A DNA stretch of 58,093 nt from Acidobacteriota bacterium. Lineage in GTDB: Bacteria; Acidobacteriota; Terriglobia; Terriglobales; Acidobacteriaceae. The stretch lies in assembly GCA_021779935.1 (NCBI GenBank), contig JAJXZT010000043.1, forward strand, positions 1-58,093. The letters run 5' to 3'. The notes beneath the pieces were generated by a model that had not been told where the DNA came from, searched no databases, and worked only from the letters and a program-made list of their open reading frames with translations. Below, piece by piece: positions 10,264 through 51,718 of this stretch (its first letter is position 1; each line of letters begins with the position of its first letter). The position numbers were made by a program, and so were the translations under genes.

Positions 10264-11235
10264 CTATCGCTTCACGTCCACCTTGTAGTGCGCGTAGCTG
10301 GCGCCTTTCACCACAACGCCGCCAAACTTCACCACCACCATCTGCGAAGCCAGCGAGCCCGTCATGCCCAACTGGAAGACGCGCGGATTGGGATCGGTCA
10401 GCCAGTGGTACTCGATCAGGTCTTCCGACACGATGTATGCCGGCAGCACTGCCGAACCGCTGCCCGGAGTGCCGGTGTAAGCCAGCGACCATTCAGGAAT
10501 CAGCGGCAGTTCGCCCGCCTGTGTCGAGAGCGTCTTCACCCGCACTCCGCCTGCAACTTCCGTCGAGGAAAGTACGACGTTGAACTCGCTCTTCATTTCG
10601 CGATCGATCAAGTCGAGCAGTACCGGGTTCGCGTAGATGGCCGTCGGGCGAACTTCGTAATTCGAGTTCGCAACCATCTGCGCAATCGTCTCCTTCAGTC
10701 CGTCGACGATGCTGTCGGTGGTCTCCACCGTAGCGACGTTGCCGCCCGTGGCGATCTGTCCAACCGCGCCGTAATACTGCTGCGAGGTCGGAGTGCTCAG
10801 CGAAGTGTCGTTGCCGTTCCACAGCGCGACATCGTGCGTGCGCATCAGTCCGTCAACAGAGTCCGCCAGGTCCTTCGCCTGCAGGAATGCGAACTGGCTC
10901 TGCTGCTGCCCCAGCTCCATGTCGAACAAGTTGTAGTTGATCTGCGAGATCAACGCCTTCAGCGGAACGCTCCGCTCCACGCGGGTCGGCGAGCTGATCG
11001 TCGCCACCATGTCGCGCGGATCGACGAATGCGTCCGCTGCCGTCGGCGAAGCGATTGCCGTCTGTTCAAAGAACCGCGACGGGTGTCCCGTTGCTGGAAC
11101 CTGCTTGATGCGCTGTCCGAAGACGCCGCGGCGCCGGACGATGTCCGTAATCTCCGTCTGGTACCGCGTGACTTCCACCGCGCCCGGTCCCATGTAGTCT
11201 GCTGCCGCGTGCAAATCGACAAATTGTGTATTCAT
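10264..11235 (-). CDS. Major capsid protein, HK97-type fold likely
   Basis: 323 residues. The body shows HK97-like capsid features: a long helix followed by the E-loop-like strand region (TRVERSVPLKALISQINYNLFDM), then VDGLKETIAQMVANSNYEVRPTAIYANPVLLDLIDREM, the classic P-domain helix followed by a residue run ending in NP. A strand-rich C-terminus (SLASQMVVVKFGGVVVKGASYAHYKV) completes it. There is no long N-terminal delta domain, so scaffolding may come from the small coiled-coil protein just upstream. AAGGAAAAGG precedes the ATG. A terminator-like hairpin follows. Confidence 0.8.
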   Translation of the reverse strand: MNTQFVDLHAAADYMGPGAVEVTRYQTEITDIVRRRGVFGQRIKQVPATGHPSRFFEQTAIASPTAADAFVDPRDMVATISSPTRVERSVPLKALISQINYNLFDMELGQQQSQFAFLQAKDLADSVDGLMRTHDVALWNGNDTSLSTPTSQQYYGAVGQIATGGNVATVETTDSIVDGLKETIAQMVANSNYEVRPTAIYANPVLLDLIDREMKSEFNVVLSSTEVAGGVRVKTLSTQAGELPLIPEWSLAYTGTPGSGSAVLPAYIVSEDLIEYHWLTDPNPRVFQLGMTGSLASQMVVVKFGGVVVKGASYAHYKVDVKR

Positions 11236-11291: not shown

Positions 11292-11334
11292 GTGCCCCAC
11301 GTTCGCGCCCTTCTTTTGGGCGATAACGTGGGTC
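11292..11334. repeat. Palindromic repeat, ACGTTATCGCCC type, upstream of capsid gene
   Basis: Arms 11296-11310 and 11318-11332 are imperfect inverted copies (CCCACGTTCGCGCCC against GGGCGATAACGTGGG). The element begins GTGCC and ends GGGTC, like other palindromes in this window. A near-perfect version lies at 21612-21648. Two (T/C)CGAAAC/TTGAAAC heptamers at 11257-11270 lie between it and the capsid start. Confidence 0.75.
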
Positions 11335-11834: not shown

Positions 11835-12392
11835 TCACTCCCCTGCCAGTTCTACCCACGTCTCCGCATACGCTGCTTTATTGCGCCGCAGAACCGCCGC
11901 GCCGGTAAAGGTCATTTCCGTCACCGCCCACACCGGAGCGCTCACGTCCGCCACCCTCACGCCCGCAATCTCGTACGACATGCCGAGTGACGCCCGCCCG
12001 TTGCGTTCGATCTCCGCCACGATCTCCGGAAAGTCCCGCTCGAACAGGTATCCCTTCACTTCCAGCGCCTCGCCGCGAGTGCTCTTGCCTCCGCGCAGCT
12101 CCGCTTCCGTAATAATTCCCACCTTGCAGCGTGCGTCATGCTTGTCCAGCGCTGGCGCATAGTCCACCGCCATCCCCAGCAGCGAAGGTAATGCTTTCTC
12201 CGTCGCTATTTTCGTCAGCAATACGCGATGCCCGCGCGCTCCCGCCGGCGGACGTTCCGACGCCTTGCCTACCACCGTCAGCACGCCCCGGAAGGCCCTC
12301 CGGTTCGGATGCCCTTCCACCGCCGGCATCTCCACCGCCATAGACTCCAGTTGGAAATCGCCTTTCATGTTCTGGTCCGTTTCCACGTTCAT
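11835..12392 (-). CDS. Prohead maturation protease-like protein
   Basis: 185 residues. Two blocks match the HK97-type prohead serine protease arrangement: ALDKHDARCKVGIITEAELR (candidate catalytic His in the HDxxxxVG context, about residue 85) and, about 50 residues on, RASLGMSYEIAGV (candidate Ser in the position of the usual LSIGY/F motif). Between them lies LEVKGYLFERDFPEIVAEI, like the family's strand-helix. It overlaps the portal gene by 4 bp (ATGA) and precedes the capsid group, the canonical order portal-protease-capsid. Sequence similarity is weak, so the protease call leans on order. Confidence 0.6.
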   Translation of the reverse strand: MNVETDQNMKGDFQLESMAVEMPAVEGHPNRRAFRGVLTVVGKASERPPAGARGHRVLLTKIATEKALPSLLGMAVDYAPALDKHDARCKVGIITEAELRGGKSTRGEALEVKGYLFERDFPEIVAEIERNGRASLGMSYEIAGVRVADVSAPVWAVTEMTFTGAAVLRRNKAAYAETWVELAGE

Positions 12393-13609
12393 CCGCGTTG
12401 TCCCTCAATCCGCGGCAGCCCGCGCATCCGCCGCACCTCGTCCACCGTCAGCACTCCGTTCCGCAGCAGAATCTCCTGCAACTGCGCCTGTTCCATCTCG
12501 TTCGGAGCATCGACATCGATAAATGCAAATTCCAGGTCGTTCCAGCCCAGCCGCTTTCCAATCGCGTCCCGCGTCAGGTGTTCCGCCAGCAGGCGTGCCG
12601 TCGGCACAATCGCCGTGCGGAATGCCGAATCGCTCATCTCGCCGGCCGTTGCCCGATTCACGTCCGCATGCAATCCCAGGAACTGTGGCGGCAAATCAAA
12701 CGCGTCGGCAATGATGCGAATCAAAAACTCCTGCCATTGCAACCGCAGGTCGGCATCCGTTCCCCCGCTCAGCCGCAGCACCTCCGGTTTGTTCTCTGCC
12801 GAGAGAATCGGCACCTTCCCCGTGCCCTCGATCTCGTCCTGCCACCAGTGAATCAGCCGCTCATGCTGCGTCGGATCCAGCTCTTGCAGCCACAGTGCAT
12901 ACTGCACCACCGAATTGTTCGCCAGCCGTGTCGCGTAGCGATGCGCCCCCAGGAATGCATGAATCGTCTCGAACGCCACCTCCAGCCTTCCCAGTCCAAA
13001 CGGCGTGTGCGTCCGTGGGTTCAGCCGTATGTATGACAACTCGTTGTCGTTCAGCACCACCTTGCCTTCTGCCCCGAACCGTCCCGTGTCCTGCACGTAG
13101 CGCGGGACATCCGGCTTTCCATCCCAATCCGAACGCAACCTGATCGTCGCGCCGTCCACCGGCCACAGCGTCAGTGGTTTCGTCTCATCCCCTGTCAATT
13201 GCAACTCAATCGCCCCGAACCCGCCAACGATCACGTCTTCCAGCACCTGTTCGGCAAACGAGCGAAACGAGTCGTCAGGGTTCGGACGCTCGAACACCTC
13301 CGTCAGGATGCGCATCCTCTCCTCGCCCTGCGGCAGTGCCTCCAGCGCACGTCCTGCTCTCGGCTGGATTCTCCACCGCATTCCAGCCACCCTGTCCTTG
13401 ATCGTGTTGATCGCCTTGCGCGCCACCGGCATCTCCGCGAAGCGCCGCAGGTTTGCCGGTGTCCGCTTTGGCATCGCCTCCAGTCGCGGCGAGTAGGTGC
13501 GGAAGATCGCTGGCAGTGCCGCCGTCCTGCGCTTCTCCACCTCCGCTCCGCCAAACACACGATCGCCTGCGCGCCGCATCGGCGCCCACAACTTCTCTGC
13601 AATGTTCAT
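12389..13609 (-). CDS. Phage portal protein (HK97/SPP1-type)
   Basis: 406 residues. Typical portal blocks: MPVARKAINTIKDRVAGMRWRI (about 60-81), then LEDVIVGGFGAIELQL (about 122-137), LWPVDGATIRL, then LNDNELSYIRLNPRTHTPFGLGRLE with the P-x-G-x-SPLE-like segment, and near the C-terminus FDLPPQFLGLHADVNRATAGEM, the portal signature preceding the crown. AGGAAGGA precedes the ATG. The portal dodecamer is the DNA entry channel and docks to the terminase. In most phages TerL is immediately upstream; here two accessory genes intervene. Confidence 0.9.
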   Translation of the reverse strand: MNIAEKLWAPMRRAGDRVFGGAEVEKRRTAALPAIFRTYSPRLEAMPKRTPANLRRFAEMPVARKAINTIKDRVAGMRWRIQPRAGRALEALPQGEERMRILTEVFERPNPDDSFRSFAEQVLEDVIVGGFGAIELQLTGDETKPLTLWPVDGATIRLRSDWDGKPDVPRYVQDTGRFGAEGKVVLNDNELSYIRLNPRTHTPFGLGRLEVAFETIHAFLGAHRYATRLANNSVVQYALWLQELDPTQHERLIHWWQDEIEGTGKVPILSAENKPEVLRLSGGTDADLRLQWQEFLIRIIADAFDLPPQFLGLHADVNRATAGEMSDSAFRTAIVPTARLLAEHLTRDAIGKRLGWNDLEFAFIDVDAPNEMEQAQLQEILLRNGVLTVDEVRRMRGLPRIEGQRG

Positions 13610-21490: not shown

Positions 21491-21532
21491 GTGCCCTACC
21501 TTTGTCGCGCGCCGTTCGCGACAGAGTGGCGT
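21491..21532. repeat. Palindromic repeat, TTGTCGC...GCGACAG type
   Basis: Begins GTGCCCTACCTTTGTCGC and returns through GCGACAGAGTGGCG. A degenerate member of the family found at 25612, 25863, 27912 and 51676. It is followed by imperfect GCTTCT hexamers (21537-21575). Confidence 0.7.
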
Positions 21533-21580
21533 AGTTGCTTTTGCTTCTGTTGTTGCTTCTGCTTCTGCTCTTGCTTGTAG

Positions 21581-21648
21581 CTAGCAGCTAGTAGCTAATA
21601 GCTAGCAGCTGCCCACGTTATCGCCCGTTTTTCGGGCGATAACGTGGG
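21581..21648. repeat. Heptamer array plus perfect ACGTTATCGCCC palindrome
   Basis: 21581-21608 is CTAGCAG, CTAGTAG, CTAATAG, CTAGCAG. Directly after it, 21612-21626 and 21634-21648 are perfect 15-bp inverted arms (CCCACGTTATCGCCC/GGGCGATAACGTGGG) with a 7-base loop. It lies between the regulator gene at 21704 and the small frame at 21428. As an RNA it would be a very stable hairpin. Confidence 0.85.
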
Positions 21649-21703
21649 GCCCTTTCACGAGACTCTCTTGCCTTGGCTCGAGTAGCTTTAGTAGCTCGGC
21701 AGT

Positions 21704-24966: not shown

Positions 24967-25928
24967 GTTTCCTCCTGAATTCGTTTACCGCGTTCCGCAC
25001 ATTGGCGGTCTACAAGAGCAACACCTACAACACGACCACTTCGGGATCTCCAGCGCACCGCTCTCTGGAGAAAGATTTTCCGGCACGACTGCTGTGCCTC
25101 TACAGGTGCGGGATTATATGCGCGAACCACGCACTCCCGCAATCACTCGGATGCAACTTCCACGCATTTCATTTGCCCGTGCGCTTTTTCGCACCCGTGT
25201 GTCTCGGAGACTACCACTCACTCCCCCAATCTTGCCAAGCATTTTCCCCATTTCCTCACCCTCACGTCAGCAACAAAAACAACCCATTGCATCTCCCCTC
25301 TCAATTTAGAACCTCACCCCTCTCCACCACCCCCATTTCTCTCCTCCGCCGATACATGTAACATGTTGATTATAAATATGTTATCCGGATAATTACGCCC
25401 ACTCGGTGGCCCATGCACGCTTTCTTTGCTTGCATGGCATCGGCGGAATGCGGGTGCTTCATCCTGAGCGCAGCGAAGGATGGGACTCTCGAAACTCGAA
25501 GCTGTTTTCCTCGTGCCTCATTCAAGTCGCCTTTGCTTGTAGACCTTCTGTGTGGCGGGTGCTTCATTCAAGTCGCTATTGCATGAGTGGGATCGAGTGG
25601 CGGCCTTGCTTGTGCCCTACCCTTGTCGCCTGTTGTTAGCGACAGGGTGGGGTCTTTTGCTTGCAGCTTGTCTTCTTCCAACCTTGTGCATCATTCCCCA
25701 TTCTCCACACATCTTTACGTTATTCGGCCGGGTAACCCATGTCTTGGAACTGAACAGGGTTTGCTTGCATGGGATCGCGGGTGCCCCGTCCTAACTTATT
25801 AGGGCGGGGTCGTTGCAGTTATCGTTCTTCTCGAAACTTGAAACTCGAAACTTTGTTCTCTTGTGCCCTACCCTTGTCGCGCGCCGTTCGCGACAGGGTG
25901 GGGTCGTTGTCGTTGGTAGGGCGCATTC
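24967..25928. repeat. Island of palindromic repeats, no genes
   Basis: 962 bp without a credible gene. 24967-25400 holds only the histone-gene leader and pyrimidine-rich sequence. From 25411 palindromes follow one another: 25411-25437 (CCATGCA/TGCATGG), 25454-25486 (TTCATCCT/AGGATGGGA), half-copy 25513-25530, 25559-25594 (TTCATTCA.../TGAGTGGGATC), 25612-25654 (TTGTCGC/GCGACA), 25736-25773 (CCCATG/CATGGG), 25781-25811 (CCCCGTCCTAA/TTAGGGCGGGG) and 25863-25905 (TTGTCGC/GCGACA). Most begin GTGCC or GTGCT and end GGGTC, GGGATC or GGGAC. Confidence 0.75.
25775..25905 (+). repeat. Composite direct repeat, copy A
   Basis: 131 bp consisting of the CCCCGTCCTAA palindrome, TCGAAAC/TTGAAAC/TCGAAAC heptamers (25831-25851) and the TTGTCGC palindrome. 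By eye it differs from copy B (27824-27952) by four substitutions and a 2-bp indel. The two copies are on either side of blaR1-blaI. Confidence 0.9.
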
Positions 25929-27293
25929 TCAGTACAGCTTGTATGCAACCTCCACGCTGATCGACACCGGCACGGAGTGGCCTTTCAGCGTCGCCGGAGT
26001 AAATCGCCATTTCTTCACGGCTTCCACGGCGTTCTTGTCAAACGCCGGCGCCAGGGACTTTGTCACCTTCACCTGCTGCGGCTGCCCCGTCTCGTCCACC
26101 ACCATGCTCAGCACGCATGTCCCGATGATTTTCTTCCTTGCCTTGAGCGCTTCCGGCGGATATTCCGGGTCAGCTCCCGAGATGAGATTGGGAGCCGTCA
26201 CCTCGCCGCCGACTTGGTACACCTTGTTCTTCGAACCTTCCACCTGCGCTACCGGCTTTTGCACATCGCTGCTTGCCTGCGCCACCGTTGCCGTAAGCGC
26301 ATTCGCCGCGACGCACGCCACCCCAACCGTCACCGCCAGCAACAGCAGTAATCCATACCGCATGCCACGACTCAGAGGTTGCTTCTTCTCCATCAGGTTC
26401 ATGATTCGTTTCTCCAGTATGTTCGCGTCGAACATTCCGACTGCATTTGCTGTCGCGGCGGATGGATGGGCATAAGCGGTCCCCGCGATCCGCAGCAGCG
26501 AGCGAGCGTAGTCGGCCGAACCGGCGACGTAATCCGCCGCCATTTCGTCACAAATAAGCTCTCGACTCTCCGCAATGCGCCCCTTCAAGATCCACGTCGC
26601 GGGATGCCACGCAATCGGCAGCGCCATCGCCTCGTATGCGAGGTTCCGCGCAAAGTCGTTACGCCGGACGTGCGCGCACTCGTGACCCAGCGCCGCTGCC
26701 ACATCCTCGCCTTCCCATTGTGTGAAGAAATCCGGCGGCACAACCAACATCACCCGGCGGAACCCGAGCGTCACCGGTCCGGCGACATCCCGGGACGAAA
26801 CCACGTCAATCGGTCCAATTGAAAAGGCGGAACGGCACCGTTGCCACACGCTTTCGAACTCCTGCGGGATCACGATTGGCTTTGTGCGCTCCGCGAGCCG
26901 CCGCGTCCTTTGAACGCGCCACAGCAGGCGGATGCTCAGGCCAACGAACAACCCCATGTATGCGAAGAACAGTGCGCGATACAGTACCGGGTTCAGTTCT
27001 ATTGCCGCGTGATGGGACATCGAGCCCGCACTCTGCCCGGCTGTATCGGTCAGCAGCACCACGGAATTTGTGTGGCCGGAATAAGCGCTCCGGACCGTCA
27101 TCGATCCGGCGCTCGCACTCCATCCCGGCATGATCGTTGCCAGTGCCAGTGCTGCAACCCAAACAGCGTGCTGCGCTCCGCACCCCATTCGCCGGACGCC
27201 GCGAGTCGCAATCGTCGCCGCAAGGAGGAACAAAGGCACCTGCCACACCGAGTTTACGCAGTAGTTGACGATCCAACGGCTCAGCTCAGTCAT
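25929..27293 (-). CDS. BlaR1/MecR1-like M56 metallopeptidase with C-terminal TonB domain
   Basis: 454 residues. TM segments lie near 16-30, 43-57, 105-125 and around 310-335. The cytoplasmic M56 zinc peptidase has GHECAHVRRND (HExxH at 204-208) and a downstream ELICDEMA Glu. Instead of the penicillin-sensor domain of true BlaR1, the C-terminal 100 residues form a TonB-C domain (ADPEYPPEALKARKKIIGTC, later VEAVKKWRFTPA). It probably senses an envelope signal and cleaves the BlaI-like repressor encoded just upstream, with which it overlaps by 8 bp. TonB-C would sit in the periplasm; its partner is unknown. Such M56-TonB fusions are frequent in this phylum. Confidence 0.85.
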   Translation of the reverse strand: MTELSRWIVNYCVNSVWQVPLFLLAATIATRGVRRMGCGAQHAVWVAALALATIMPGWSASAGSMTVRSAYSGHTNSVVLLTDTAGQSAGSMSHHAAIELNPVLYRALFFAYMGLFVGLSIRLLWRVQRTRRLAERTKPIVIPQEFESVWQRCRSAFSIGPIDVVSSRDVAGPVTLGFRRVMLVVPPDFFTQWEGEDVAAALGHECAHVRRNDFARNLAYEAMALPIAWHPATWILKGRIAESRELICDEMAADYVAGSADYARSLLRIAGTAYAHPSAATANAVGMFDANILEKRIMNLMEKKQPLSRGMRYGLLLLLAVTVGVACVAANALTATVAQASSDVQKPVAQVEGSKNKVYQVGGEVTAPNLISGADPEYPPEALKARKKIIGTCVLSMVVDETGQPQQVKVTKSLAPAFDKNAVEAVKKWRFTPATLKGHSVPVSISVEVAYKLY

Positions 27294-27675
27294 GTTCGCG
27301 CTCCATCTTCTTGAGCTTTCGCGATAGCTCCGCGATGCGTTCCGGCTTGATCTGCCGGGACTTCATCAGGCTCATCACCAGGTCCTCCGCCGATCCGCCG
27401 AACATCCGGTCCACCAGGTCACCCACCGCGTGGCTTAGGGCGTTCTCCTTGGAAACTACCGCGCGGTATTCGTACGCGCGGCCCTGCAGTGCCCGCTCCA
27501 CCTTCCCCTTGCGGTGAAGCACATTCAACATCGTCTGCACCGTCGTGTACGCCAGTTTCCCGCCGAGTTTCTCTTGCACGGTCTGCACATTGACCGCACC
27601 CACCTGCCAAAGGACCTGCATGATCTGCAGTTCGAGAGGTGTCAGCGTCTGCGGTTCTTTTTTCCGTCGAATCAT
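27286..27675 (-). CDS. BlaI/MecI-family transcriptional repressor
   Basis: 129 residues. Winged-helix N-terminus: LTPLELQIMQVLWQVGAVNVQTVQEKLGGKLAYTTVQTMLNVLHRKGKVER, the standard BlaI/MecI DNA-binding block (residues 12-62). The C-terminal dimerisation helix region (DLVDRMFGGSAEDLVMSLM) carries the area normally cut by the M56 peptidase. It heads the operon with blaR1-like gene and overlaps it. Two operator-like inverted repeats lie directly upstream, so autorepression is likely. Confidence 0.9.
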   Translation of the reverse strand: MIRRKKEPQTLTPLELQIMQVLWQVGAVNVQTVQEKLGGKLAYTTVQTMLNVLHRKGKVERALQGRAYEYRAVVSKENALSHAVGDLVDRMFGGSAEDLVMSLMKSRQIKPERIAELSRKLKKMEREHD

Positions 27676-27682
27676 GCATCAA

Positions 27683-27744
27683 CTCCTAAACGATTAGGAG
27701 ATTAAGACGCAACACCGCTCTTGTCAACTAAAAGTTTAGGAGTT
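27683..27744. promoter_or_regulatory. Paired BlaI-type operators
   Basis: 27683-27700 reads CTCCTAAACGATTAGGAG, a near-perfect 18-bp dyad. 27727-27744 carries a second, AACTAAAAGTTTAGGAGTT-like dyad with TTTAGGAG half-sites. The centres are about 44 bp apart, four helical turns, on the same face. The first starts 8 bp upstream of the blaI start codon. Confidence 0.75.
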
Positions 27745-28145
27745 CATCCGGATGGCCGCACAAATTTTCCGCACCTGGGTAAGGCGGGTGGCCCGGGCTA
27801 ACACATTTGCACCAGCAAAAGCCTCGCGGGTGCCCCGTCCTAACTTGTTAGGGCGGGGTCGTAGCAGTTGTCGTTCTTCTCGAAACTTGAAACTCGAAAC
27901 TTTGTTCTCTCGTGCCCTACCCTTGTCGCGCCGTTCGCGACAGGGTGGGGTCTTTGACTTTGACTTTGACTTTGACTTTGCTTTTGCTTTTGCAGTTGCT
28001 TTTGCCGACGACCAACGTCCATCGACCGACGACGCTTTTCGCTCAGCGACTCAGCAGCTCTTCTTTTTTCGTCCTTACAATCGTCAATCAGCAATCGAAA
28101 ATCTACAATCTCTCTGCGCCCTCTGCGTTCAGCTTTTGCTTTTAC
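27745..28145. other. Gene-free spacer with repeats between blaI and mltD
   Basis: No gene seen. Contains composite repeat copy B (27824-27952), an array of TTTGAC then TTTGCT hexamers (27953-27990) and an AT-richer stretch. Transcription from blaI points left and mltD ends here from the right, so part of it is mltD 3' trailer. Confidence 0.65.
27824..27952 (+). repeat. Composite direct repeat, copy B
   Basis: 129 bp counterpart of 25775-25905, in the same orientation and with the same internal order: CCCCGTCCTAA palindrome (27830-27860), heptamers (27880-27900), TTGTCGC palindrome (27912-27952). Confidence 0.9.
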
Positions 28146-28173
28146 TCGAAACTTGAAACTCGAAACTCGAAAC
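28146..28173. repeat. Heptamer array (TCGAAAC type) after mltD
   Basis: TCGAAAC, TTGAAAC, TCGAAAC, TCGAAAC: four copies, beginning 3 bp past the stop of the minus-strand transglycosylase gene. Confidence 0.85.
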
Positions 28174-28175
28174 TT

Positions 28176-30053
28176 CTACCTGATCACAATCACCTGTCCC
28201 GGCCTCAGGTCTTTTTCCACGCCGCGATTGTCCCGCTTCAGCGCGTCCACCGTCGTGTTGTATTTCTGCGCGATGCTCCACAGCGACTCGCCCTCGCGCA
28301 CCGTATGTCTGACGGGTGCTCCGCGTCTGCCTTCTTTGCGCGGACGTGGGTCCGCTGTTCGACGCCGTATTGCTTCCTCTTCCCGCGCCGTCAGCGGACG
28401 ATAGATCAGCAGCCACCGTCCCGCGCGCAGCATGTTTCCTCTCAGCCGGTTCCACCGCCGCAGCCGTTCCGCCGGAACCCCAAAGTCGTCCGCCACCGAC
28501 AGCACCGTGTCTCCCCGCCTCACCTTGTAGCGCGTCGGACGCTTCGCATATGCAATCCGTTCCGCGCTCCGCCCCGGCGACACCGGAATCACCAGCGTCG
28601 CGTCTTCTTGCAGATCGGCCGCGCGCTTCAGGTTGTTGACCTCGGCAATTGCCGTCTCCGTCGTGTGATACTTCCGCGCAATCTCTGCCAGCGTCTCGCC
28701 CCGCTCCACCGTGTGATAGCGCCACCACACACGCATGTCCTGGGGAATCTGCGCAATCGCCTGTTCGAACTTGTCCGCCGTTCCCTGCGGCAAATGAAGA
28801 TCAAACTCCTCGCCTTTTGGCGTCGTCATCCGCAGCAGGCTTGGATTCAGGTCCTGCAGTTGCTTCACCGGAGTATCGACAATCTCGGAAACCAGTCGCA
28901 GGTCCACCGGGTAGTCGATCTCCACCGCGTCCGTCTTGATCGGCTTGTCCGGCACAATGTTTTCCAGCCCGTACTGCGCCGGATTCTTCGCCATGATCGT
29001 CATCGCCAGGATGATCGGCACGTAGTTCTTGGTCTCCGCCGGCAGAGCGTTCCGCCTGTAGAGTTCCCAGAAATCCGCGTACCCCGTGCGCTGCACCGCG
29101 CGCTGCACCGTCAGAGGACCCGAGTTATACGCCGCCATCGCCAGGTACCAGTCGCCAAACTCGTGGTAGAGGTCCTTCAGGTGCTTGGCCGCCGCTTCCG
29201 TCGACTTCTCCGGGTCTTGCCGGTCGTCCACCCACCAGTTGCGTTTCAGTCCGTAACCCTCGCCGCGGCTCGCCATGAACTGCCACATCCCGCGCGCTCC
29301 CGCCCGCGATAGCGCCAGCGGATGGAACCCCGACTCCGCCTGTGCCAGGTAAATCAGGTCCTGTGGTATGCCTTCCTTCTTGAAGATCCTCTCGATCATC
29401 CCGCGATAGCGCCCCGAACGCTCCAGCGCCCGCTCGATCGTGCCACGGCCCTTGGTCGAAAAGTAGCTGATAAAGCTGGCAACCTCGTCGTTCATCACCA
29501 GCGGCAAATCCGAATGCGTCTCTCGCACCTCGGCTTCGCCCTTTTCCCGCACCGCCGGATCAACCGGGAACGTCACTTCATTCGCTTCGTCGATTGGCGC
29601 CGGTTCGGGCTTCTGTTCCGTGAAGCCGTCGCCCTCCTTCAGCGCCTGCATCTCCAACTGGCTCACGTTCTCCACGATCTTGTCGAACTCGCGCTCCAGC
29701 CGTTCGTCCGAGTGCACCGGAATCTTGCTCTCCAGCACGATGTCGAACGCCTTGTCGAAGTTGTCCTTCGCTGCGTCCAGGTGGCCTGCCTGGTAGTTGG
29801 CTTGTCCAGCCTTGAACTCCGCCTCGGCCTTCTCCACCACCGCCTCCACCGGATCGACCGGCGCGGCCGCCGGCGTCTTTGCCTGCTGTGGAGCCTGTGC
29901 CGTCTCGCTCGGAGTTGGTTGCGTCACCGTCGGCGCCATCGCTTGGGGTGGAGGCGTCGCAGTCGTGTTCTTCTGCTCGGTGGTCTTGCACGAGGTGGAG
30001 AGAATCACCGCGCCCAGTAGGGGGAGTGTCAGATAAAACTTCGTGATCTTCAT
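28176..30053 (-). CDS. mltD: Membrane-bound lytic murein transglycosylase D-like lipoprotein with LysM repeats
   Basis: 625 residues. Lipoprotein signal with lipobox LSTSC (Cys22). Pro/Ala/Gln-rich linker (30-70), then a helical region (70-150). The SLT domain (about 220-350) has the catalytic Glu240 in AQAESGFHP and the family motifs GARGMWQFM and MAAYNSGP. Three LysM modules follow: about 434-478 (YHTVERGETLAEIARKY), 509-554 (YKVRRGDTVLSVADDF) and 582-625 (HTVREGESLWSIAQKY). It cleaves peptidoglycan with 1,6-anhydro ends at the inner leaflet of the outer membrane. The architecture is that of MltD (E. coli: 452 residues, two LysM), with an extra LysM and a longer N-terminus. Confidence 0.9.
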   Translation of the reverse strand: MKITKFYLTLPLLGAVILSTSCKTTEQKNTTATPPPQAMAPTVTQPTPSETAQAPQQAKTPAAAPVDPVEAVVEKAEAEFKAGQANYQAGHLDAAKDNFDKAFDIVLESKIPVHSDERLEREFDKIVENVSQLEMQALKEGDGFTEQKPEPAPIDEANEVTFPVDPAVREKGEAEVRETHSDLPLVMNDEVASFISYFSTKGRGTIERALERSGRYRGMIERIFKKEGIPQDLIYLAQAESGFHPLALSRAGARGMWQFMASRGEGYGLKRNWWVDDRQDPEKSTEAAAKHLKDLYHEFGDWYLAMAAYNSGPLTVQRAVQRTGYADFWELYRRNALPAETKNYVPIILAMTIMAKNPAQYGLENIVPDKPIKTDAVEIDYPVDLRLVSEIVDTPVKQLQDLNPSLLRMTTPKGEEFDLHLPQGTADKFEQAIAQIPQDMRVWWRYHTVERGETLAEIARKYHTTETAIAEVNNLKRAADLQEDATLVIPVSPGRSAERIAYAKRPTRYKVRRGDTVLSVADDFGVPAERLRRWNRLRGNMLRAGRWLLIYRPLTAREEEAIRRRTADPRPRKEGRRGAPVRHTVREGESLWSIAQKYNTTVDALKRDNRGVEKDLRPGQVIVIR

Positions 30054-51675: not shown

Positions 51676-51718
51676 GTGCCCTACTCAGGACGCGCGCAGT
51701 TTGCGACAGGGTGGGGTC
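51676..51718. repeat. Palindromic repeat between pyrH and frr
   Basis: GTGCCCTAC at the left and GCGACAGGGTGGGGTC at the right, with a diverged left arm (TCAGGACGCGCGC). A member of the TTGTCGC family, 26 kb away from the others. Confidence 0.75.

Follow-up and report, generated by a model that had tools for sequence, protein, structure and literature searches.

Palindromes with common ends and varied cores in an acidobacterial genome as probable REP elements of RAYT genes, oriented with respect to GC skew

The clustered palindromes of an acidobacterial contig are, in our reading, REP elements of a Terriglobia clade of RAYT/TnpA_REP, and their orientation would come from the action of the RAYT on one DNA strand; we give this reading a probability of roughly 0.88. 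The evidence comprises the recurrence of the palindromes, their occurrence on both sides of RAYT genes and their close agreement with local GC skew.

Results

Palindromes in the window and in the genome

The draft genome studied is 4.49 Mb in size, and the window, that is, the whole analysed stretch of 58,093 nucleotides, is its contig C55. The first-pass annotation had described here a family of palindromes with varied cores and common ends, and direct reading found all 14 of the named palindromes, each in the + orientation. Eight of them, five clear and three decayed, lie within 25406-25905. The clear ones are a class E palindrome with the tag GTGG (CCCATGCA..GCATGG, 25406-25441), a class D palindrome (ATCCTGAGC..GCGAAGGAT, 25454-25486), a class A palindrome (CCCTTGTCGC..GCGACAGGG, 25612-25654), the core of which is present in identical form beside the RAYT gene on contig C63, and a class B (25781-25811) and a class A palindrome (25863-25905) arranged head to tail around a linker as a composite unit (25781-25905). 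The decayed ones are two class G-like elements, at 25513-25548 (weak pairing) and 25559-25594 (end GGGATC), and a class E remnant that has no tag (25733-25776, start approximate). Six further palindromes were confirmed outside this cluster: a class C element (CCCACGTTCGCG..CGATAACGTGGG, 11292-11334), a class A element with a decayed right arm (21491-21534), a near-perfect class C-like palindrome with a changed tag (named at 21612, spanning 21607-21652), the class B (27830-27860) and class A (27912-27952) members of a second copy of the composite unit (27830-27952), and a class A element with a decayed left arm, 18 bp past an amino-acid kinase ORF (51676-51718). The start GTGC[C/T] was found in 11/14 window palindromes, and the end GGGRTC, GGGTC or GGGAC in 10/14. 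The contig shared with the palindromes also carries an ORF for a phage portal protein (12389-13609).

Genome-wide, the pattern GTGCCC-N14..44-GGGRTC yielded 55 matches vs 10 for the reversed pattern. The occurrence of core classes in many copies, which had been proposed as a check, was borne out by the exact cores of class A (37 places) and class E (16 places, 32 strand hits), with 0 places for the reversed patterns of either; classes B, C, D, G, I and others also recur, in fewer copies, in the part of the genome examined. Intact copies in the window and the genome are 31-45 nt long, which fits a short REP palindrome (20-50 nt), and they are mostly intergenic, since rough gene calls placed 11/93 REPs inside ORFs. 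Among class E copies, which were collected by a search demanding exact stems, the stem is constant and the loops are nearly all different, mostly with TT ahead of the right arm. A strict scan of 19 stretches of the genome picked independently of hits gave 12 matches vs 6 for reversed and 9 for shuffled controls; outside clusters, the palindromes hardly exceed the background. Of the stretches examined first, about half had been selected by hits. A loose-tag scan was mostly noise (83/155 matches unclassed; 101 in the reversed control) and was superseded by the strict scan.

RAYT genes of the genome and their palindromes

The search for a REP-associated Y1 transposase gene, suggested by the first-pass annotation, was successful. 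Five Y1_Tnp matches were found in the genome, and the three of them covered by the scan with NF047646, the REP-associated tyrosine transposase model (P0001-P0003), exceed both its cut-off and that of PF01797. Relative to the first RAYT, the second and third have identities of 58 and 57%, HVH and YIHRNP motifs were read in the RAYT sequence, and among solved structures E. coli TnpArep (4er8) gave the best match. Direct reading showed inverted palindromes on the flanks of all three paralogs, with the common end and a core proper to each: class B on contig C15, class G on C48 and class A/A2 on C63, where the upstream palindrome lacks the tag and the locus was missed by the automatic scan. The idea that an enzyme goes with the ends is supported by these RAYT genes of the genome, flanked by these very palindromes. 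One RAYT gene runs at its 3' end into the downstream REP (L012:1288-1330), and the palindrome therefore encodes the last residues of the protein.

The two remaining Y1 genes were considered as carriers of these classes and rejected: no palindromes were seen by eye in the flanks of the gene on C4 (L011), and the flanks of the gene on C3 (L015) hold GTAGGCCCAGCC-type repeats. The latter is a different Y1 transposase gene (L015:1378-1990), located between GTAGGCCCAGCC-type palindromes, so that the classic GTAG tag is also present in this genome.

No cognate RAYT of class E was found among the five Y1 genes. The exact class E core is present in 6/200 family genomes, including the genome studied, and elsewhere reaches several copies only in G041 (7 places), in which the copies sit on other contigs than both RAYT hits of that genome. 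Cores like those of classes C and I adjoin RAYTs in relatives (L119/L206, as for the class C element at 11292; L104/L203; L105/L196). The classes without a RAYT in our assembly (C, E, D, I and F) are probably remnants of lost RAYTs or were moved in trans. The AGGTCTCG core, which belongs to relatives, is present with the full pattern in 25/200 genomes, in up to 20 copies; in the five genomes whose fetched RAYT bears this core (G012, G090, G130, G180 and G194), 8-17 copies each were counted, flank copies included.

Tagged hairpins at RAYT loci across the family

RAYT matches (E up to 1e-30) were present in 131/200 family genomes, and from 259 confirmed RAYT loci in named genomes, the best 80 were kept, all Acidobacteriota by title and many of them Terriglobia. 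In total, 172 loci were used: 3 from the genome studied, 109 from the searches of named and family genomes, and 60 additionally fetched from the family listing. Using a search pattern that itself fixed part of the tag, we found a tagged hairpin in the expected orientation on at least one side of 168/172 loci and on both sides of 125/172; with the orientation reversed the count was 49 loci, and with shuffled flanks 3.

Could these be unrelated palindromes, with ends alike through base composition or the search pattern? The tag positions fixed in the 172-locus search lend this explanation something, but a test in which the tag was not required speaks against it, as do the reversed and shuffled controls. 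Among the strongest flank hairpins (n = 249), 171 carried the forward tag only, 3 carried it in both senses, 18 carried it reversed and 57 had none, with 25 flanks lacking a strong hairpin; in stretches away from the RAYT gene, the forward tag was present in 19/192. The check that the first-pass annotation had set against itself, concerning the frequency of the end motifs relative to expectation and their position at palindromes, was run and left its claim standing (55 vs 10 genome-wide; 174/249 vs 19/192 for the tag-free hairpins).

The match between upstream and downstream cores tells further against unrelated palindromes, to which we give practically no weight. After near-duplicate loci were set aside, 137 remained for core comparison, and the two cores agreed (at least 7 of 9 positions) in 90/98 non-redundant loci vs 19% between loci. 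Core identity was 0.92 within a locus vs 0.50 between loci, and core distance tracks RAYT distance (Mantel r 0.41, 0/2000 permutations). The suggestion that the core is a replaceable cargo stem loses ground here, because the core matches the adjacent RAYT and fits a recognition part better.

Tag, foot and core

The constant part of the palindromes is the 5' end, which reads GTG[CG]CC and is faced by GGG at the other end of the palindrome. The tag of 231 RAYT-flank hairpins was GTGC in 188 cases, GTGG in 42 and GTGT in 1; most classes thus have a variant tag and not the canonical GTRG 5' tetranucleotide. The earlier statement that both ends are kept holds for the 5' side, but not generally for the 3' side: a 3' TC is frequent in dispersed copies, and the five bases past GGG around RAYT genes hold only 0.04-0.26 bits each. 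In class A, GGGG is followed by TC, TA, CT, AA, TT or AT, and one class A copy has no GGGG at its 3' end. A prediction of cleavage sites by the guide rules in the available part of Corneloup 2021 was tried and dropped, as the 3' ends misfit.

A set of 64 distinct cores, selected for having 7 or more of 9 pairs and with the first two C dictated by the search, was compared pair by pair. Almost all have C-G at pairs 1-3, while each of pairs 4-11 occurs as three to six standard pair types; the outer stem is thus fixed, and the two sides of the inner pairs change in concert. Pairing is absent at pairs 9-11 in 14-15/64, and the loops are T-rich toward the 3' side. Loop bases and stem irregularities are given as recognition points of related enzymes in the available text of Corneloup 2021. 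The ends are therefore a tag and stem foot common to the gene family, and the core goes with the individual RAYT. This arrangement had been set apart from ordinary REPs, which were supposed to keep the core and vary outside it; the published accounts, as far as their text was available, describe otherwise, with a constant 5' tetranucleotide, stems that differ and are family-specific, and repeat-specific RAYT loci (Di Nocera 2013, PMC3733652; Nunvar 2010, 2013, PMC2817692, PMC3686654).

Orientation relative to GC skew

In the genome studied, the tag is located on the C-rich strand in 88/93 known-class REPs and 56/60 clusters (P about 1e-12), and 5/93 REPs run against this rule; the set covered 61 stretches, of which 34 contained known-class REPs, and the REPs together with 300 bp around them were masked. 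GTG[CG]CC words without a following GGG lie on the C-rich strand in 63% of cases (484/772), and in 57 and 56% in the relatives G130 and G058. The skew belongs to the strand itself, as the third codon positions of genes in both directions change in parallel (r 0.94-0.96 in our genome, G130 and G058; 0.84 and 0.90 in other relatives). The rule held for 28/29 and 21/22 REPs with both flanking genes on the C-rich or both on the G-rich strand, respectively, and for 39/42 with mixed flanks, showing that REP orientation is independent of gene direction.

This independence of the flanking gene strand bears on a further explanation, in which the palindromes serve host genes as intrinsic terminators or as hairpins at RNA ends. 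GC-rich hairpins, some located directly past genes (51676), and T as the commonest base at positions 2-5 past many copies are what such an explanation would lead one to expect, but no terminator-like site was found at the palindromes in 25300-28200 (1 elsewhere in that region vs 3.0 expected in shuffles), no Rfam match was obtained in 10000-58093, and like cores flank RAYT genes. We regard terminators as highly improbable.

The same orientation rule was found in two one-contig assemblies of other genera, in which 60/66 REPs of G130 and 67/77 of G058 agree with the skew (127/143 in total), as do 41/46 and 34/44 of the singletons, respectively. The skew had the predicted sign in 19/20 stretches of each genome, the 40 stretches having been picked by REP orientation among the matches listed and the skew measured afterwards. 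In G058, the one stretch whose sign was unclear (L312) shows an abrupt change of skew around 10-12 kb, where a + REP at 10547 is followed, 275 bp apart, by a - REP at 10854. Within L312:10000-12000, the skew goes from about -0.15 to +0.2, and a 16S rRNA gene lies about 7.5 kb further on. Among the relatives, 28/32 singletons and 66/100 REPs overall were on the C-rich strand. RAYT genes share this lean weakly (32/49).

In the G130 and G058 stretches (L286-L325), the skew sign flips many times between 20-kb samples, often with values of 0.1-0.2, unlike a two-replichore pattern. Such repeated sign changes on one-contig chromosomes suggest many inversions that carried the REPs along. No bias was seen in a 400 kb sample of E. 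coli K-12, examined with what we take to be the REP consensus and replichores of that strain: 36/78 REPs were on the C-rich and 42 on the leading strand, and the singletons gave 11 C-rich and 15 leading.

Arrangement of neighbouring elements

Neighbouring REPs stand head to tail because they follow the local GC skew. In the strict scan of our genome, all 26 pairs of neighbours within 150 bp, RAYT-locus copies included, were head to tail, and 23 of them combined different cores; inverted exceptions appeared under other filters, in 1/23 close pairs with a loose tag and in 1/30 neighbours within 1.5 kb. In 20 stretches of 14 other genomes, picked near RAYTs or REPs, 13/16 close neighbours were inverted.

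These inverted neighbours argue against the explanation that selection keeps one orientation, the REPs being polar chromosome signals for segregation or repair. Chi, KOPS and AIMS are examples of such signals. The close tracking of strand asymmetry, down to the two L312 REPs that flip within the 2-kb bin of the skew switch, is what a polar signal would display. However, class content varies among genomes, and spread is explained by RAYT linkage without selection; we consider such signals unlikely.

The composite unit of class B, linker and class A is present in three copies, at 25781-25905, at 27830-27952 and on contig C15. The similarity runs from GGGTGCCCC to GGGGTC, with few shared bases beyond, and the linker is 25 nt longer in one copy. 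Judged from the three aligned copies, this confined similarity looks as if the segment had moved as one unit. Compared with an autonomous IS200/IS605-type unit, it has boundaries in three copies and no transposase inside. REP linkers (25820-25862, 27870-27911 and many others) contain near-repeats of CTCGAAACTTGAAACTCGAAACT and T-rich GTTGCTTTTGC runs.

Replication polarity

Does the C-rich strand correspond to the leading or to the lagging strand? The marker genes gave mixed evidence. A search for 16S rRNA in our own assembly found none; in G058, one 16S rRNA gene lies on the locally G-rich strand. The G-rich strand also carries 10/13 of the tRNAs found. The C-rich strand carries tmRNA in 3/3 cases, 4/5 E. 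coli-derived marker genes, and dnaA and dnaN as judged by third-position skew, and genes found by motif split 3 to 3 between the strands.

These markers bear on the possibility that the orientation is a bias of loss, the RAYT or the fork removing a REP when the lagging-strand template exposes its tag strand, so that REPs of the other orientation alone survive. The 16S rRNA gene and the tRNAs fit it, since the tag strand would then not be exposed on that template, but tmRNA, the E. coli-derived markers and dnaA/dnaN point the other way, and the motif-found genes are evenly divided. We hold a loss bias to be less likely than not.

Discussion

Proposed mechanism

We propose that the RAYT paralogs recognise single-stranded DNA by the 5' tag and the CCC/GGG foot. 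Each RAYT would owe its own REP class to a stem that differs between paralogs, possibly with a contribution of the T-rich loop. The RAYT may then cut and move single REPs or short REP-linker-REP units, and would act on one strand of replicating DNA, inserting one orientation or removing the other. The palindrome is nearly alike on both strands, and therefore it can be oriented only by something that reads the tag on a single strand. In the papers, as far as available, REPs are processed by RAYTs in vitro as single strands (Corneloup 2021), and the lagging-strand template is where the related elements IS608 and ISDra2 act (Quentin 2018); single-strand RAYT action at the fork is what we infer from this combination.

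We lean slightly toward a more specific version, in which REPs of Terriglobia are strand-locked: RAYTs would insert or leave one orientation relative to the replication strand, mixed-core arrays could build up head to tail, and each REP would record the polarity of its segment. In the literature searched, from which subscription papers were mostly outside and which was available in part, no report of strand-locked REPs was found, including their head-to-tail order and the tag on the C-rich strand. RAYTs cut REP hairpins in vitro, and in the same literature, as available, movement in cells is not shown.

An orientation bias of about 95%, gene-independent and absent in the E. coli sample, opens the fork hypothesis to direct testing, and a constant tag and foot combined with dozens of cores provides matched enzyme/substrate pairs for studying how RAYTs, as domesticated transposases, distinguish their repeats. 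If our reading is true, strand-locked REPs are genomic evidence of RAYT action at replication forks, the co-flipping of REPs and skew marks past inversions, and the 64 or more cores form a natural library for reading the RAYT specificity code.

Comparison with known systems

The elements are of a known kind, REPs of RAYT/TnpA_REP, in variant form. In the available text of the reports on RAYT/TnpA_REP with GTRG REPs (Nunvar 2010, 2013; Di Nocera 2013; Quentin 2018; Corneloup 2021), the shared features are an HUH Y1 transposase, inverted REPs on both sides of its gene, a constant 5' tag, class-specific stems, a core diverging with the RAYT, and dispersed copies. The elements studied here differ from those descriptions in a tag that is mostly GTGC, a fixed CCC/GGG foot, same-orientation arrays of mixed cores (in our genome) and an orientation tied to GC skew.

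REPINs and BIMEs are likewise short two-REP units, and relatives such as G151 (L245) show inverted pairs with a nearly identical core. In our genome, however, close pairs are head to tail, and 0/26 are inverted.

TIRYT genes are described in Acidobacteria (Koribacter, Terriglobus, Granulicella and others) with long inverted repeats, several of them with GGGGWSAS; Koribacter has three TIRYT genes with different TIRs, one of the three being a repeated family (Di Nocera 2013, PMC3733652, as far as the text was available). Compared by this description only, they share with our genes the phylum and a place in a distinct acidobacterial transposase group, and perhaps the two are the same group; the flanks here differ in being tagged hairpins with dispersed copies.

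Class 3 TnpA_Y1, which also occurs in Acidobacteria, is associated in the available text of Quentin 2018 with CnGA-tagged structures in Planctomycetes, Acidobacteria and Proteobacteria and has many copies in Solibacter. It has the signature Y----Q and another tag, whereas YIHRNP of the present RAYTs corresponds to the class 2 signature Y---NP. The same text cites Gomez 2014 on transposon orientation.

The ends of IS200/IS605 elements (IS608, ISDra2) resemble our REPs in a 5' guide tetranucleotide with a hairpin and in strand-specific action at the fork. Both end hairpins of IS200/IS605 have the same orientation. The present elements differ in being dispersed units without a transposase, and their tag apparently lies on the other strand if G-rich means leading; under that condition the tag strand is opposite to the IS608 expectation, and a plain IS608 insertion model therefore misfits.
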